Shown piece after piece: positions 48,345 through 56,826 of a stretch of 64,000 nucleotides of DNA. The notes under the pieces were generated by a model, which worked only from the letters and a program-made list of their open reading frames with translations, did no database searches and had not been told where the DNA came from. Source of the stretch: a virus; the IMG/VR virus record IMGVR_UViG_3300021088_000005, positions 1-64,000 of that record; one strand, 5' to 3'. Numbering within the stretch: the first letter of the stretch is position 1; the number at the start of each line of letters is the position of its first letter. Made by a program: the position numbers and the translations under genes.

Positions 48345-51300
48345 TTATTCCTCTGGAGGCTGCTCTACCGTACCGAAAACGGTTAGGGACAATACCTCGT
48401 TCGCAAAATTTTCCGCAGGGAAGCTTACCTTGACCTGCATGTGTTCCGCTAGAGCAGGAACTCCTGCCGCACGGAAGTAATACGCATTTGAATACAAACT
48501 TGTCGGCTGTTTAGTAGCCCCGTATATCTGCCACGGATACGCCTGAGACTGCGGGAATGTCGTGAATGTTCCGGATATTTCGTTCAACAAGAATCCGACA
48601 GTTGGGGTTGTTCCTACGCGAGTTGCTCGCAGGTTAACGAATGTCAATCCGGCGATCTGCCCTGGGTTTACCAGGTTGATGTTGCCCATCGTGAAACTGC
48701 AAGTATATGGGGTTCCGTCGTCCTCGTAAGTTGAGAAGTCTCTTTGCAAAATATGCTTGTTTGAGCCGATTCCGCCTACAAGTAGTCTGTGAACGCCATT
48801 AGAAACTTCGATGCTCAACACTGCTCCCGCACCACCTGTAATTGTCGCAAACGGACTCCATACTGCAAGGTTGTTCGGGAATTGGCTCGGATTCAGTCGG
48901 TACCAGCCTGTTACTCCGTCTGATATATAGACAGCATTGTCATTGCCGCTTTCGTGAACGGTGACGAATACTTTGGTTGAATCGAACAATGCGAGCTTGT
49001 CCTGGATAGGACCGCCCATACGCTGCGCACCACCGCTAGGGTCTAAACTGATAAACTGGTTGTCGGAAGTGTACATGTAAATAACGCCGCCATGAATATC
49101 CAGAGCGTTGTAGTGCAGCAATCCGACTCCTGGAATCATCGGGGTTGGGAAGAACGTAGTGAATACAGGTCCGCCCAATATAGCGTAAACATCTGATGTT
49201 AAGAATACCAAAATGCCTGTTGCTGTCGGCACAATCCTAGTTACCGGACTCGGGAACTCAAAGAAGTCCAACGGGTCGAACGCTTCGTTCGGATTTCCGG
49301 TCAATACATCCGGTCCGCCAGAAGCAAACACGAAGTTTCCTACCGCACCCCAAATTCTCTCGAAGTGATACGCCATAGGCAAGAATCCCGCAGGCGGAGG
49401 GTTGTTTTGGTTGTTGATCGGCGCTTCGATGAACTGGTTTATAACAGAATCCGGCTGCACGTCCTTGACAGTTTGGAACTGTTGAATTCCGCCAATCGGA
49501 GGAGTATTTGGAACTTCGGTCAAGAAGAACAAAGTGCTTCCGCCGTCTAGAGTTCTCCAGATTACGATAGTATCTACCTGAGGGTCAGGTGATCCCGGAA
49601 TTGTCAACGTGACCACAGATGTAGGGAACGCAGACGAGAACGTAAACAACGGTGACGCAGTTGACACATGCCCGGTTCCCGACCCTGTCGGAGGTCCTAG
49701 AGCACTCGGCCAGTCTGGGGGAGCAGTCGTATTATAGATATCGTTTGCAGTACGACTCTTGTAGCTATACGCATACGACACACTCTTTGTGATCGAAAAT
49801 CCTTGAGTCTGCGCTACTCCAAGATTGAACCAAACTAATCCGTGGGTTGCTATGCCAGAGTGGGTTTCGTTAACTTGGGTTGTGGTTGTGACAACCAATG
49901 TTGTTGCGGTTGAAGCTGTCACCTTTGCTATTACGTTATTTCCGAAGTTCGTGAACCCAGAGAACAAAAATGAGCTACCAGCATAAGCGTTTCCCGCACC
50001 GCCAGTTATTGTTCCGGTATACGTAGTTGACGGTCCGGCAACAGTTACTTGGGTCAGAGCAAAAATACTATCGCTGTCTGCTGTAAGATTTCCAGACGCA
50101 GCCCACGTAGGATGCGCACCTGTCTTACTTTGGCCTGACCTGACCGCAGCTTCGATATTGTTGTTGCTATCGATAATCAGCGCTCCGCCATATGGAACTG
50201 CTCCGCTAGGAGGGAACCATCCGGTAGTCGGCAAATACCATGTCTGATTAGCAGCCCAAGTTAACACTTGTCCTACGCAGGTCCATACTACAGTACCGTC
50301 TACAGTGGTCTGCCCGTATCCTTCTGCCCACGAAATACTTGATGTAGCCGTAGCAGACGAGACTCCGCTAGTGGTGCAAACCTGGAAGTTAGCGTTAGCA
50401 TCAATGATTACAGAGAATACCGTGCCTTGAGCGGTAAACGCCACATACGCAGTGTTTGTCAACCTTGTAGAAGACCCAAGGTTCAACCACGCAAGTTGGT
50501 TATCCCCGGTCACTGTTCCTGTGGTGATCGACCACGGTGGTGAAGTTCCACCTGCTCCGGTTGTCTGTGTTGACCCTGTGAAGTTTACCTGATAGAAAAC
50601 CGTCTGATTACTTGGCAATCCACCAGCTAGACCAACAGGCTCGACTACTGTGTTGGTTCGCGAACCGTCTAGTGTGGGAACAACCATTCCTGGCTTCCAC
50701 GGCTGCGGAGTCTTCTGCACGCCAAAGTTAAACCAGATCAGGTTGTTATCTGGGACTGATCCGCCGACTGCTGCGGAGAAGTTCGGACGTGTTGTTCCGC
50801 TTGTTCCGGCGGGGTTAGCCTGCACCTGACAGCAATTTGTGATCGGATCAAATATGATGCAAGGGCTTAATAAAGTTCCACCTGTGGCACTGTTATTGTA
50901 CGAATGCCCCGGTTGCCAGAACGTAATCGGGCCGAAGTTCGTCCAGTCCCACCCGTTATCTAGAGTGAATCCGCCGGGAGTCTGATTCCAGTTTGGCTCT
51001 CCGTTTCCGCCCAATCCGAAACGAGTAGAGTTAGGGTTTGTTGCTGGCTGCGCGTTAACTGAAATTAACTGCTCGATGTTTCCGTTAGAATCTAAGATCA
51101 GCCCCATCGTAGAGAATACGGTATCCTGCTGCCACTGCACTGTCGCAGATGCGCTCGGAGTGATTGTAACGACCGGAGCCGTAGGTCCGGCCACTATTCC
51201 CCAATTCGATACCTTACCGTTAGCCGGGTTGCAGTCCGCTCCGAGAATGAACTTCTGTAAATCAACTCCGTCTCCGTAATACAGGGTATCTGCTACGCCC

Positions 51301-51701
51301 TGGTACTGCCCCTGGTGCGCTCCCGCAGACTTCGTGAAGATCAGGTTCTGGGTTGTCGCACTCTGAATATAAGTAGACGTAGTTGTATCTACAACCACCT
51401 TAGGACCGCAAGACAAAGTTCTCCAATCGTAGAACCAGTTTATCTGATCTGGGACTGTGACTGAAGACCATTCGGACAATCCTGGGCGACGTATAAGAGT
51501 AAGCGCGTTGCTTATCTCCATGTTGCTGCCGTCGATCAATGCATCCGGATAGCCGCCATACTTTGAAATGTACCAAGACGCAGGATCGTGAAGTGGAGAC
51601 CTATTGGTGAACAACCCGGTCTCCATTCTCGCGATATGTATTGGCTTGCCACGCGAAGGATTTCTTACCTGCGCTCCGACAGCTTCCAGCATTCCTGTCA
51701 T
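48345..51701 (-). CDS. large tail-tube/nozzle-like protein, 1118 aa
   Basis: N-terminus (GKPIHIARMETGLFTNRSP, SNALTLIRRPGL) and C-terminal half resemble podovirus tail nozzle (T7 gp12-type) proteins. Middle (about 190-700) is expanded by repeated beta modules with P-x-[WF] ... T-x-D-x-x-x-W-x-x-[LF]-G (for example DNNLIWFNFG, DGTVVWTCVG, ATHGLVWFNLG). C-terminal propeller-like region from about 730. Builds the tail tip or carries surface modules. Confidence 0.65.
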   Translation of the reverse strand: MTGMLEAVGAQVRNPSRGKPIHIARMETGLFTNRSPLHDPASWYISKYGGYPDALIDGSNMEISNALTLIRRPGLSEWSSVTVPDQINWFYDWRTLSCGPKVVVDTTTSTYIQSATTQNLIFTKSAGAHQGQYQGVADTLYYGDGVDLQKFILGADCNPANGKVSNWGIVAGPTAPVVTITPSASATVQWQQDTVFSTMGLILDSNGNIEQLISVNAQPATNPNSTRFGLGGNGEPNWNQTPGGFTLDNGWDWTNFGPITFWQPGHSYNNSATGGTLLSPCIIFDPITNCCQVQANPAGTSGTTRPNFSAAVGGSVPDNNLIWFNFGVQKTPQPWKPGMVVPTLDGSRTNTVVEPVGLAGGLPSNQTVFYQVNFTGSTQTTGAGGTSPPWSITTGTVTGDNQLAWLNLGSSTRLTNTAYVAFTAQGTVFSVIIDANANFQVCTTSGVSSATATSSISWAEGYGQTTVDGTVVWTCVGQVLTWAANQTWYLPTTGWFPPSGAVPYGGALIIDSNNNIEAAVRSGQSKTGAHPTWAASGNLTADSDSIFALTQVTVAGPSTTYTGTITGGAGNAYAGSSFLFSGFTNFGNNVIAKVTASTATTLVVTTTTQVNETHSGIATHGLVWFNLGVAQTQGFSITKSVSYAYSYKSRTANDIYNTTAPPDWPSALGPPTGSGTGHVSTASPLFTFSSAFPTSVVTLTIPGSPDPQVDTIVIWRTLDGGSTLFFLTEVPNTPPIGGIQQFQTVKDVQPDSVINQFIEAPINNQNNPPPAGFLPMAYHFERIWGAVGNFVFASGGPDVLTGNPNEAFDPLDFFEFPSPVTRIVPTATGILVFLTSDVYAILGGPVFTTFFPTPMIPGVGLLHYNALDIHGGVIYMYTSDNQFISLDPSGGAQRMGGPIQDKLALFDSTKVFVTVHESGNDNAVYISDGVTGWYRLNPSQFPNNLAVWSPFATITGGAGAVLSIEVSNGVHRLLVGGIGSNKHILQRDFSTYEDDGTPYTCSFTMGNINLVNPGQIAGLTFVNLRATRVGTTPTVGFLLNEISGTFTTFPQSQAYPWQIYGATKQPTSLYSNAYYFRAAGVPALAEHMQVKVSFPAENFANEVLSLTVFGTVEQPPEE

Positions 51702-53758
51702 TATCCGCGTCCTCTAGCTGCTTCGCCCTGTTGGGTTTGAATCTGGTTTATCAACTGCTGTGCGTTGACGTTCATGTAGCTCGCCATGAATGCTACACGA
51801 TCCATCTGTGTTAATCCTTCTGTCTTGCCTAGAAGTCCTGCTACTCCACGAGCGATATACTGTGGTGCGCGTGGGTCTTGGCATGAGTCCATGTAATACC
51901 CTAAGCATAGATTGTTGTATATATCCGAGAACGAATCCGGAATTGGGGACCAGGAGTCAGTAACCGCTGTGAACTGAACAGGTTTCTTCTGGTATATCAA
52001 GTTAACTGGAAATATCTTATTTGGTACGGCTGAAAATCTAAATATAGGAGAGACATTTCCTAGGCCGGGAAGTGTCGGATATCCGACAAGTACTGCCTGC
52101 CACTCCGCTGAGGACGCCTGCGTCCAACTTGATGAGTATGTACCCGCTGTAGAAGCCAGCAGCGCAGCAGTACTTAGTTGAACATTGACAAGAGCCGAAT
52201 CCGCAATGGTCCCTGATTGTAGAAGGCTAAACGGCGCTGTAGCCGTAGCTGGCGGAGCGTACCCGGTTGTGAAGGATATTAAAACTTCATTATCCAGTGG
52301 GGTAACTATAGAAGTGGAAGACCAAGATGATCCGGTGCCCTGGCTGTTAACCGGAAATGTAAGCTGTATTGGACCGACTCCTGTTAGAAGCGCCCCCTGA
52401 ACGAGGAAGTTTCTAGGTCCCGGTCCGGTGATAGTGATAACGCTGGTTCCGGAAGCCGTCACAGGCATATTGTATACAACAAATTGGTGATCGTCAACAA
52501 CTGATGGAACTGTCGCAACTGTGAGTGTAACCGCAGTTGCGATGGTAACAGCCCCGGAACTAGTTACTATGCCAGCTAGGGCTCGACCATTAAAAGTTCC
52601 GCCGCCAAGAGTAATACTCGTATTAGCCAGAATGTTGCCGTTAAATACTCCTATGGTTCCTACAGTGGTAGCAGAACTACCTACAAGCCAAACCACATTT
52701 TCAGCACGAGCACCGTTAACCAAAAGAATGGATGCCCCGCTCTCCAAAGTAAGCGTGCTTCCAGCCTTAAAAACGAACATGGCATTTGAATTTCCTTGCG
52801 CGTCCAATGTAATGCTGGTCGGAATGTCCATACTTGTACCAGCGGAATAATTGCCAGGAATATAGGTGCTAGCGTTAGAACCGTTTCCTAGAACAGATAG
52901 ATTAGCAGAAGAACCGCTCAATGACGTAAAACTTAATGCGCTGTAAAAGTTATACGCAGTAAGCGCATCGGTTAACGCCGCAGAAGCACCAGTATTGTTG
53001 ATTGCCGCAGGAGGGGTGAAATTTGCCCCGGTAAAGCCTGTCTCGGTAGCAGTCGGGAACGATCCGATATTACCGCCAGTAATTAGGGTTGCGCCGGAGT
53101 TCGTAATTCCCGCTGCGGCAAGGATAGCGTACGCAGCAGCCGTGCCTAGTTTCGTTGCTACCGGGTCCGATCCCGGAAATGACGCGTTCTGTGATGAAAC
53201 TAGGGTTATCACATTGCCCAAATTATCCGAAACACTTGTGGGATTCCCTACACCGTCACTCATATCAAGCCCGAATACGAGAGTATCTCCGGCTAAAATT
53301 GTTTGAGGTACGGTAAAGCTAAAAGTTGTCTGTCCCGTAAAATTTGAAGAAGAGAAGCTAGTCTTGATTACGGAGTTCAGATTCGGCGTTAGCGGCGTTA
53401 CTCCGAAACGCTGAACTGATATAACTTCAGGACGAGCCTGTGTTGAAGACTTTGCAAGAGACACGGTATTCTGAATGTCCTTCAACTCATAAAGTTTACC
53501 ATCGGTATCCTGCACTGTAGTCTGTTCTAGGAACCCGAAATCCAGGATACTTGTCGGGTAATCTTGTTGAGATATAACTGTTGTGATACTGTCGTCAAAG
53601 TTACGATTGAACGGCCAGGTGAACGGTGCAGATAGGATTAAGTTACGAACAATGTTCGCAATTCCTATGAATGGCATGCCGTTAGTGCCTATATTGGCTG
53701 GCATATACCGACAGTACGGTACGACATAGTTGATGGTGTCTTGTAGAGTATTAGTCAT
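51701..53758 (-). CDS. neck/tail-tube protein with nested ice-binding-type (DUF3494) domain
   Basis: 685 residues. Residues 1-130 (LSAPFTWPFNRN) and about 575-685 look like one head-tail connector (T7 gp11-type) protein. Between them lies a beta-sandwich (from about 135) that is itself interrupted by residues ~203-415. That insert matches the DUF3494 ice-binding family: LGTAAAYAILAAAGITNSG, IPGNYSAG, ITLDAQGN, MFVFKAGSTLTLESG, NVVWLVGSSAT, GNILANTSITLGGG, GRALAGIVTSSGAVT. An antifreeze-type beta-solenoid would decorate the virion neck. Function on the virion is inference. Confidence 0.75.
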   Translation of the reverse strand: MTNTLQDTINYVVPYCRYMPANIGTNGMPFIGIANIVRNLILSAPFTWPFNRNFDDSITTVISQQDYPTSILDFGFLEQTTVQDTDGKLYELKDIQNTVSLAKSSTQARPEVISVQRFGVTPLTPNLNSVIKTSFSSSNFTGQTTFSFTVPQTILAGDTLVFGLDMSDGVGNPTSVSDNLGNVITLVSSQNASFPGSDPVATKLGTAAAYAILAAAGITNSGATLITGGNIGSFPTATETGFTGANFTPPAAINNTGASAALTDALTAYNFYSALSFTSLSGSSANLSVLGNGSNASTYIPGNYSAGTSMDIPTSITLDAQGNSNAMFVFKAGSTLTLESGASILLVNGARAENVVWLVGSSATTVGTIGVFNGNILANTSITLGGGTFNGRALAGIVTSSGAVTIATAVTLTVATVPSVVDDHQFVVYNMPVTASGTSVITITGPGPRNFLVQGALLTGVGPIQLTFPVNSQGTGSSWSSTSIVTPLDNEVLISFTTGYAPPATATAPFSLLQSGTIADSALVNVQLSTAALLASTAGTYSSSWTQASSAEWQAVLVGYPTLPGLGNVSPIFRFSAVPNKIFPVNLIYQKKPVQFTAVTDSWSPIPDSFSDIYNNLCLGYYMDSCQDPRAPQYIARGVAGLLGKTEGLTQMDRVAFMASYMNVNAQQLINQIQTQQGEAARGRG

Positions 53759-53761
53759 AAA

Positions 53762-54847
53762 TTATCTCGGGTACTGGAACGGCCACGCCGCCCCCTGATA
53801 TCGACCGTTTCTTCCGCCTCCGCCCCTGCTGGTGACTCCCTGCTCCGGGACGAATCGGTTCTCTTCAAGTTCACGGTCTTCGTTCGCACGTAGGTCGTTC
53901 AAACTCTTTAGCCAAATCTGGTAGTTCTTCTCGAACTTCGCCTGGACAGATGCAACTGAACTGTAGCGATAGCACTGCGCGATAACTCCCTGGCGGAAGT
54001 ACGGCTCGTATCTATCCGGCATCGGAGCTAGGGTGTTATCCAAACTTGTAAATCGAACAGGAGGCATCTGTGCGACTAGCTTAAACTGGAACACTGGCCC
54101 GGTCTTTGACGGCACTGGAAGAATACGGATGCCTACTCCGTCAGGGTCTACTACTGTCCAAACTGTGCCGCCGTCTACTGTGTTTGTTCCTGGTGCTGCG
54201 CCAGCGTTCGGCCAATTAGGTGCGGTTGCTCCGCAGGTGCCGTATGTTGTGACAACCTGAAGGTTGCCGTTCGGATCAATTATCTGTGTGATGGGGTTTG
54301 AAGGCTGGTCGTTCGCAGTTGCGTTCAATGGGTTTGTGTACACTGCGTTCGGGCCTGGGTTGTTTCCGATTGTAGGATTACCTGTGTCGGTAGCTCCCCA
54401 TGTTCCGTAGTACAACATGCTGTTCGGAAACCAACTTGCCAAGAATGTCGGGTAAGACCATCCTGCAACCTGCTGGAAGGTTCCTGTGGCTTGCGCCAAC
54501 TGGCGACCACACTCTACGTACCCAAATGGCTTCGGTATCGCATTATTGGTTGACATCAGAATAGCAACCCCGCGCTCAAGCCATTCAACATTGTAGACGC
54601 TAGTGCCGTTCGGATTCAATAGAGCATAGTCCTGTTGGTAGCTGTTTGTGTAGAAATCGGGCAGCTTGACTTCGTTCCACTTGTGAGGGAACGGAACCCC
54701 GCAGATTTCAGTCATAACATCGGTGCAGATAGTAATGAACGGCTCCAACTGGAAGCCGCCGACATTAGCTAAAACCGGGTTCACGTCTCCGAGAGGCTGA
54801 ACCTTATCGAGAATGTTTTGTAGTGTGTATCTAGGTAGAGGAGCCAT
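53762..54847 (-). CDS. neck/tail tubular protein
   Basis: 361 residues from ATG 54847 (start MAPLPRYTL; an earlier in-frame start at 54883 lacks support). Ends resemble a podovirus tail tubular A-type protein (ITICTDVMTEICG, then RYEPYFRQGVIAQCYRYS and a helical C-terminus). Residues ~175-250 hold an inserted module with ITQIIDPNGNLQ, P-N-W and GGTVWTVVDPDG, like those in the 1118-aa tail protein. Probably joins portal to tail. Confidence 0.6.
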   Translation of the reverse strand: MAPLPRYTLQNILDKVQPLGDVNPVLANVGGFQLEPFITICTDVMTEICGVPFPHKWNEVKLPDFYTNSYQQDYALLNPNGTSVYNVEWLERGVAILMSTNNAIPKPFGYVECGRQLAQATGTFQQVAGWSYPTFLASWFPNSMLYYGTWGATDTGNPTIGNNPGPNAVYTNPLNATANDQPSNPITQIIDPNGNLQVVTTYGTCGATAPNWPNAGAAPGTNTVDGGTVWTVVDPDGVGIRILPVPSKTGPVFQFKLVAQMPPVRFTSLDNTLAPMPDRYEPYFRQGVIAQCYRYSSVASVQAKFEKNYQIWLKSLNDLRANEDRELEENRFVPEQGVTSRGGGGRNGRYQGAAWPFQYPR

Positions 54848-54942
54848 GGTGTTCGACCAGGCTACGGAAAGGCGGGTCTCCAAGACCCATTGTGCCGTAG
54901 TCTTAGAGTGATTCGGAATGGTATATCAGGGTCGATCTCCTA

Positions 54943-56240: not shown

Positions 56241-56768
56241 TCAGTCCTTTATTGCTCTTCGGCGCTGCTGCGCCAAAGACAAATTGTGTTTATGCTCTTC
56301 CGTAAAAACACGACCTTTTGCCTTTTCAGACATCAGTCTTTTTGTTTCTTCGGAGTGCTTCATGCCGAGGCGAGCTTTATTGCCCATCTTAGCGACGGAA
56401 ATCTTTTTGCAATGCTCATCAGACTTCACGTGCTCTGACATACGACGTTTGGTGTCTTCGGACAAACGGAAGCCTAACATCCCTCCGCCGCCGTCAGTTA
56501 GATTATACCCCTTTTCGGGGTTCCTCAAGTCTAAAAACTTAATTAATTCGCGTTCGTAGAAATCCATATCTTCTTTTGTTTTAACAAAAGCCAAGGTTTC
56601 TATCTCAAAATTATCTATGCCGTACTTCTGAATGGCATTATATAAATACGATGGTCTGCGGTGAGTGAATGGCTTTTGATGCCTCTTCCACCGTTTGTCT
56701 AGGCTTTGAGATGTTTGCCCAACATACTGCTTACCGTTAATTTTGTTTGTAACAATATAAATCTGCAT
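56241..56768 (-). CDS. GIY-YIG homing endonuclease with NUMOD3 motifs
   Basis: 175 residues from ATG 56768 (GAGGAG upstream; a start at 56822 would lie in the hairpin leader). GIY-YIG core: IYIVTNKINGKQYVGQT at 3-19, catalytic Arg in DKRWKRH, Glu in FYERELIKF, Asn in GYNLTDGG. C-terminal NUMOD3-type DNA-binding motifs LSEDTKRRMSE and HSEETKRLMSE. Lies directly after the intron-containing capsid gene, outside the intron, so it may promote homing of the intron or of itself. Confidence 0.85.
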   Translation of the reverse strand: MQIYIVTNKINGKQYVGQTSQSLDKRWKRHQKPFTHRRPSYLYNAIQKYGIDNFEIETLAFVKTKEDMDFYERELIKFLDLRNPEKGYNLTDGGGGMLGFRLSEDTKRRMSEHVKSDEHCKKISVAKMGNKARLGMKHSEETKRLMSEKAKGRVFTEEHKHNLSLAQQRRRAIKD

Positions 56769-56793
56769 TTTGTTCTCCTCAAAAGAACGGGTC

Positions 56794-56820
56794 GGGAGAT
56801 ATGTTTGAGGCATATCTCCC
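56794..56820 (-). promoter_or_regulatory. 10-bp hairpin in the endonuclease leader
   Basis: GGGAGATATG and CATATCTCCC are perfectly complementary around a seven-base loop. Lies between the predicted promoter and the ribosome site of the GIY-YIG gene. Could attenuate read-through from the capsid gene or control translation. Confidence 0.6.
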
Positions 56821-56826
56821 ACCCTA

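Follow-up and report, generated by a model that had tools for sequence, protein, structure and literature searches.

The window analysed here, a stretch of 64,000 bases that comprises bases 1-64000 of a 100,810-base IMG/VR virus record (IMGVR_UViG_3300021088_000005), encodes a 685-residue virion protein of adaptor or neck type with nested domains (51701-53758, an intact open reading frame; this and all other window features below lie on the minus strand). We found that the protein contains a complete DUF3494 ice-binding domain and that this domain, as far as sequence can tell, is a recurrent module of these phages, beyond one odd acquisition, with a conserved face that coincides with the ice-binding face of its relatives. 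The reading that we favour, with moderate confidence, is ice binding by a domain displayed on the virion.

The Pfam Ice_binding profile (PF11999) matched residues 212-406 over profile positions 1-202 of 208 (E = 5.5e-36; 124.6 bits against a cut-off of 28.7), and a profile made from phage domains extended the match to residues 202-416 (52511-53155). A PF11999 search at the DNA level located the domain at 52538-53125 (E = 4.8e-38) and found none in 14 control genomes. With phmmer, 23 PDB chains reached E <= 0.01. Their names identify them as ice-binding, antifreeze or DUF3494 proteins, with the one exception of 6bg8, deposited as 'Ig domain protein', which another source describes as the DUF3494 domain of Shewanella IBP_1. 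In an AlphaFold2 (AF2) model of the 685-residue protein built with 44 sequences, the domain was predicted as solenoid strands plus a helix (residues 258-273) at a predicted local distance difference test score (pLDDT) of 93-98. All 31 Foldseek matches in PDB at E <= 0.001 were DUF3494 ice-binding proteins, the next match being at E = 0.15; the top ones, 6EIO and 7BWX, reached E values down to 4.7e-12 and template modelling (TM) scores of 0.79-0.83 on the target, with 34-37% identity in the structural alignments. Hyperionvirus supplied the only significant Foldseek matches among viral models, two DUF3494 proteins (BFVD A0A3G5A745 and A0A3G5AEI1). The domain has 10 charged residues and 32 Thr in 215. 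Profile search and structure prediction thus confirm that residues 203-415, which the earlier note had assigned to DUF3494 from the letters alone, are a complete PF11999 domain with a predicted triangular beta-solenoid and helix, the coordinates agreeing within 2 bases.

The same note had described a two-level nesting, which sequence comparison and modelling bear out. For the outer level, a 243-residue orthologue (L097) represents the empty site, having a 14-residue loop (INNSGTDEPSSFLT) where the window protein has 456 residues. In the global alignment, residues 1-116 and 131-243 of this orthologue pair without gaps with residues 1-116 and 573-685 of the window protein, placing the whole inserted block at residues 117-572 (52043-53410). 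The N-terminal connector part that precedes the block (53411-53758) is 54% identical to L097 and 40-41% identical to L079, L080 and L026, and the C-terminal one (51704-52042) is 59% identical to L097 and homologous to gp13 of phage Tunturi_3, a 'tail protein' with 33% identity. For the inner level, the DUF3494 domain falls between two strands of a predicted beta-sandwich within the 456-residue block: the AF2 strands at residues 130-192 and 424-459 that flank it have a pLDDT of about 80. The first half of the sandwich corresponds to strands at about 130-192 (53159-53371; pLDDT about 65-84) and the second (52043-52489) to the confident strands 424-459 and a poorly modelled part that extends to residue 572. 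The interrupted sandwich aligns to an uninterrupted one in L011 with a score of 98, compared to a mean of 50 and a maximum of 78 in 300 shuffles. The connector parts were poorly modelled by AF2 because the alignment is shallow there. Two mixed alignments (A2 and A3), in which short adaptor orthologues were misplaced onto the DUF3494 domain, were excluded from the structure work.

Because the record is a metagenome contig, such an arrangement could in principle arise as an assembly chimera or be a misannotation. An independent contig (L006/L024), however, encodes a 924-residue protein of matching architecture with extra TYTGTITGG repeats, whose domain is 87% identical to that of the window and whose termini are 68-70% identical; the window gene is one intact frame; and its GC content is 48.8% in the domain, 47.5% in the rest of the gene and 49.8% in the window. 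We regard the chance of such an artefact as practically negligible.

For the enclosing protein, the claim of a connector-type identity gains from SU10_adaptor (PF24175) matches and from gene position, and remains weak in that the match in the window protein (residues 570-636) is below the cut-off (E = 0.0084; 17 bits versus 27); in one orthologue it reaches E = 8.7e-6. The minus-strand gene order is terminase (TerL), portal (SU10_portal, E = 9e-18), capsid (PHROG, E = 3e-5), adaptor-like, 685-residue protein, nozzle-like and fibre-like, so that the gene lies between the capsid and the nozzle/tail genes, as for an SU10-type adaptor. Both lines of evidence weakly support assignment to the connector or adaptor type.

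The window protein is not the only carrier of the domain. Its virus has a second DUF3494 domain in a protein of the fibre region (contig 75126-75716), namely a 591-residue protein (minus strand, contig 74001-75776, or L004:12002-13777) with the domain in its N-terminal part, TYTG repeats and a C-terminal part common to other fibre-type proteins of related phages. Its gene is adjoined by those of a collagen-like GPQGPQGE repeat protein (L004:11257-11922, minus strand) and a trypsin-like protease with a signal-peptide-like N-terminus (L004:13983-14747, minus strand; PF13365, E = 7.5e-12). Two scans of IMG/VR viral contigs yielded 65 and 78 loci, on about 82 different contigs, and 48 of the 50 records that were searched whole contained the domain in one to six copies each, the other two having been included as nozzle relatives. 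Record G029 (223 kb) has six copies in all, and proteins of 824-840 residues in L046, L051, L054 and L081 carry two domains each. The 89 distinct host proteins fell into 29 flank clusters; since shared repeats merge clusters and diverged homologues may split, 20-30 kinds of host protein is the honest range. When the N-terminal 200 residues of the 685-residue protein served as the query, no confirmed relative was found in the viral contigs, and relatives were reached via the nozzle protein. Among cultured phages, tblastn gave no match to the two domains tried, and no PF11999 was found in the Tunturi_3 genome.

Insertion at different places is clearest in homologues of the nozzle-like large virion protein encoded next to the 685-residue protein (48345-51701; 1118 residues; PHROG head decoration, E = 2.9e-6), which itself lacks DUF3494. 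Numbered on this domain-less copy, the homologues carry the domain at four or more sites: at 74 (L079/L080), at 931 (L008, exact), at 976-978 (L013 and L018, with L185/L160 at or near this site) and at 994-999 (L182, L069 and L071). The AF2 model of the nozzle-like protein is poor (mean pLDDT 44.6), and we therefore make no claim on where the insertion loops sit. The domain thus occurs at several sites in unrelated proteins of virion type, many of which have this role by our assignment, and is absent from close homologues. Its recurrence in different loops of many different proteins strongly supports the surface decoration proposed in the earlier note, the presence of the domain on particles being what we infer from it. 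A further repeat module of ~75 residues (TYTGTITGGASNAFAG...ETHAATA) is found at residues about 541-630 of the nozzle-like protein and also in L002, L006, L037, L079 and L021; this second promiscuous module, which the scans run matched to no named Pfam family, has been shuffled among proteins of nozzle, adaptor and fibre type and those bearing DUF3494, sometimes in tandem.

We then turned to the face through which relatives of the domain bind ice. Mutants of AnpIBP put its ice-binding site on the B-face of the solenoid, S153Y/T156Y leaving 17% of the activity (PMC7277481). By alignment to this protein (7bwx), its S153 and T156 correspond to S361 and T364 of the window protein, part of the S-S-A-T-T at residues 361-365 on rung b4 of the predicted B-face (52664-52678), and the equivalent positions are Ser in 94% and Thr in 94% of the phage domains. 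The same alignment gives AGITNS, STLTLE, SSATTV, TSITLG, GAVTIA and TSMDIP as B-face rungs, with central outward Thr residues at T219 (b1), T337 (b3), T364 (b4), T383 (b5) and T405 (b6); Thr occupies these five positions in 93, 58, 94, 91 and 87% of the phage domains versus 40, 46, 46, 40 and 60% in the bacterial sample described below. Mean entropy is 0.74 at outward B-face positions versus 1.43 at other non-hydrophobic strand positions (Mann-Whitney p = 0.0098) and 1.45 over the whole domain (B-face versus remaining positions, p = 9e-5). Known DUF3494 proteins such as AnpIBP (7BWX), the Antarctic consortium IBP (6EIO), FfIBP (4NU2) and that of Flavobacteriaceae (5UYT) are alike in family, predicted fold and B-face composition; the phage domains differ from them in a more regular Thr ladder and in standing apart from the bacterial sample. 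A conserved ice-binding face favours ice or ordered water as the putative ligand over lost function.

This conservation bears on two other readings of the insertions. The domain could be a generic adhesive decoration, a solenoid that gives virions a weak hold on soil particles, cell envelopes or polysaccharide, with ice not its natural ligand. Its promiscuous insertion resembles that of known decoration modules, and the domain shares proteins with another shuffled module, the TYTGTITGG repeats; for T4 Hoc, moreover, binding of the Ig-like domains to mucin glycans and to the surfaces of bacteria has been reported (PMC10385173). The conserved surface, however, is exactly the ice-binding face of the relatives, and it is rich in Thr, Ser, Ala and Gly rather than aromatic or charged as is typical of glycan sites. 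We consider generic adhesion possible but on balance doubtful, and favour virion ice binding over it on account of B-face conservation, retention of the residues essential in AnpIBP and composition. Alternatively, the domain might be a passive spacer or stabiliser that protects or shields a loop and has no ligand. Relatives do tolerate quite different inserts in their loops, those of the orthologues lying after QDY in Tunturi_3 and before WAPIPD in L026, L079 and L080, but in a spacer one would expect neither that a single exposed face is so much more conserved than the rest nor that different proteins of one record retain as many as six copies, and this reading is improbable.

When 84,980 species genomes were scanned with a motif, only seven loci emerged, the best 46% identical over part and 36% over the whole of the domain. 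A quick tree separated the 87 phage domains from the 15 bacterial ones with a Shimodaira-Hasegawa-like approximate likelihood ratio test (SH-aLRT) support of 98; since the bacterial sample is small and was chosen by the phage motif, the tree shows a distinct phage group among the sequences sampled and not its origin. The window's virus contributes domains to two separate subclades: its adaptor copy groups next to L006 (adaptor) and L008 (nozzle), its other copy with fibre-type proteins. With two copies in one virus and phage domains that group apart, the domain does not look like one isolated acquisition. L022 is placed far from its fibre-type counterparts, which suggests that the domain has been exchanged. 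At the nucleotide level, the two domains of the window's virus are 63% identical and the nearest others 69-74%, and so no recent transfer between genes was seen.

In most sampled Bacteroidota copies, a signal peptide is followed by the domain ~27 residues from the N-terminus. Such a signal is typical of known DUF3494 members, though not defining, and these are secreted or cell-surface proteins of cellular organisms, whereas the phage domains form part of phage proteins, of which hardly any begins with a signal peptide; that of the window is internal to a protein with a connector-type N-terminus. By eye, a signal-peptide-like N-terminus is found in only two viral host proteins (L136:4803-6095 and L088:3110-4270), which may be host genes or true auxiliary genes. 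These two would fit an auxiliary gene for host cryoprotection, expressed so that the infected cell withstands freezing, and this is the published interpretation for three viral operational taxonomic units (vOTUs) of the Arctic surface microlayer whose genomes, as here, contain PF11999, read there as auxiliary metabolic genes (PMC11515562). In nearly all viral copies, the domain nonetheless lies within a larger protein, or is fused to one, that lacks a secretion signal, and the window protein is not free-standing, being encoded among head and tail genes and having domain-less orthologues. Embedding in virion-type proteins, nearly always without a signal peptide, argues for particle decoration over host cryoprotection, which we deem very unlikely. 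S-SKS1, cited in the same study as a phage with a homologue, gave no PF11999 match in our search.

In the mechanism that we propose, a DUF3494 domain would have turned into a mobile module for display in one group of tailed phages, which probably live in soil. It occupies loops in known or apparent proteins of the outer neck, nozzle and fibres. Virion assembly would then present several copies outside the particle, through symmetry and through multiple genes, and the symmetric display would give avidity. The flat B-face, with its near-invariant ladder of Thr, Ser, Gly and Ala, would impose order on water and fasten the particle to ice or freezing films, so that virions may be anchored where cold hosts live, protected in freeze-thaw, or both. 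For most host proteins we infer the virion location, as we do surface exposure, ice binding, benefit and avidity. The more general proposition, that phages with ice-adhesive virions are widespread, that the shuffled domain gives multivalent attachment and that ice capture or freeze-thaw survival is selected, is put forward tentatively, as somewhat short of probable. Several points count against ice binding by displayed domains. The DUF3494 family occurs outside ice-associated settings too. The central position of rung b2 is Asp (47% Asp) and not Thr, the B-face was placed by alignment to AnpIBP and not by coordinates, and its conservation might be due to packing of the solenoid or to a different ligand. 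Most of the other host proteins have no PHROG match, and the quality of the connector and nozzle models does not suffice to demonstrate surface exposure.

As to genomic context, the gene on the other side of the 685-residue protein encodes an adaptor-like protein without DUF3494 (53762-54883; SU10_adaptor, E = 0.0019, below cut-off) that is 38% identical to the 'structural protein' gp12 of Tunturi_3. Neither the adaptor nor the nozzle protein had useful matches in sequence searches of PDB. An open reading frame judged by eye to be GIY-YIG homing-endonuclease-like (56241-56822; IYIVTNKINGKQYVGQT) lies among the head genes, shortly downstream of that for the capsid. The best-ranked terminase match is also to Tunturi_3 (25% over 62%), a podovirus of an Acidobacteriota host (PMC11924767) and, by terminase and adaptor-type protein, the nearest isolated phage. 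From this kinship, seen in the terminase and in the homologue of the C-terminus, we would guess at a soil, Acidobacteriota-type host.

The nearest precedent is that of promiscuous Ig-like decoration domains. Like the domain described here, those of the T4 Hoc type are accessory on different virion proteins and are thought to act in weak surface adhesion (PMC10385173); their fold is unrelated, and DUF3494 differs in its location in loops of neck- and nozzle-type proteins and in having a candidate ligand face. The Hyperionvirus DUF3494 proteins are viral like that of the window but not of a tailed phage, Hyperionvirus being a giant virus of eukaryotes. An analogous logic may be proposed for MpAFP of Marinomonas primoryensis, a very large bacterial surface protein of unrelated fold, in which an ice-binding domain on display tethers the bearer to ice (PMC5014055, PMC4083281). 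No paper on DUF3494 and phages was found in the open-access literature, to which the search was confined, subscription papers being outside its scope. Our results suggest that PF11999 hits in viromes should first be checked as virion parts. If the proposed reading is true, phage particles would themselves be ice-binding agents, which would bear on viral persistence in freezing soils, on transport with ice and melt, and on how PF11999 is annotated in viromes.
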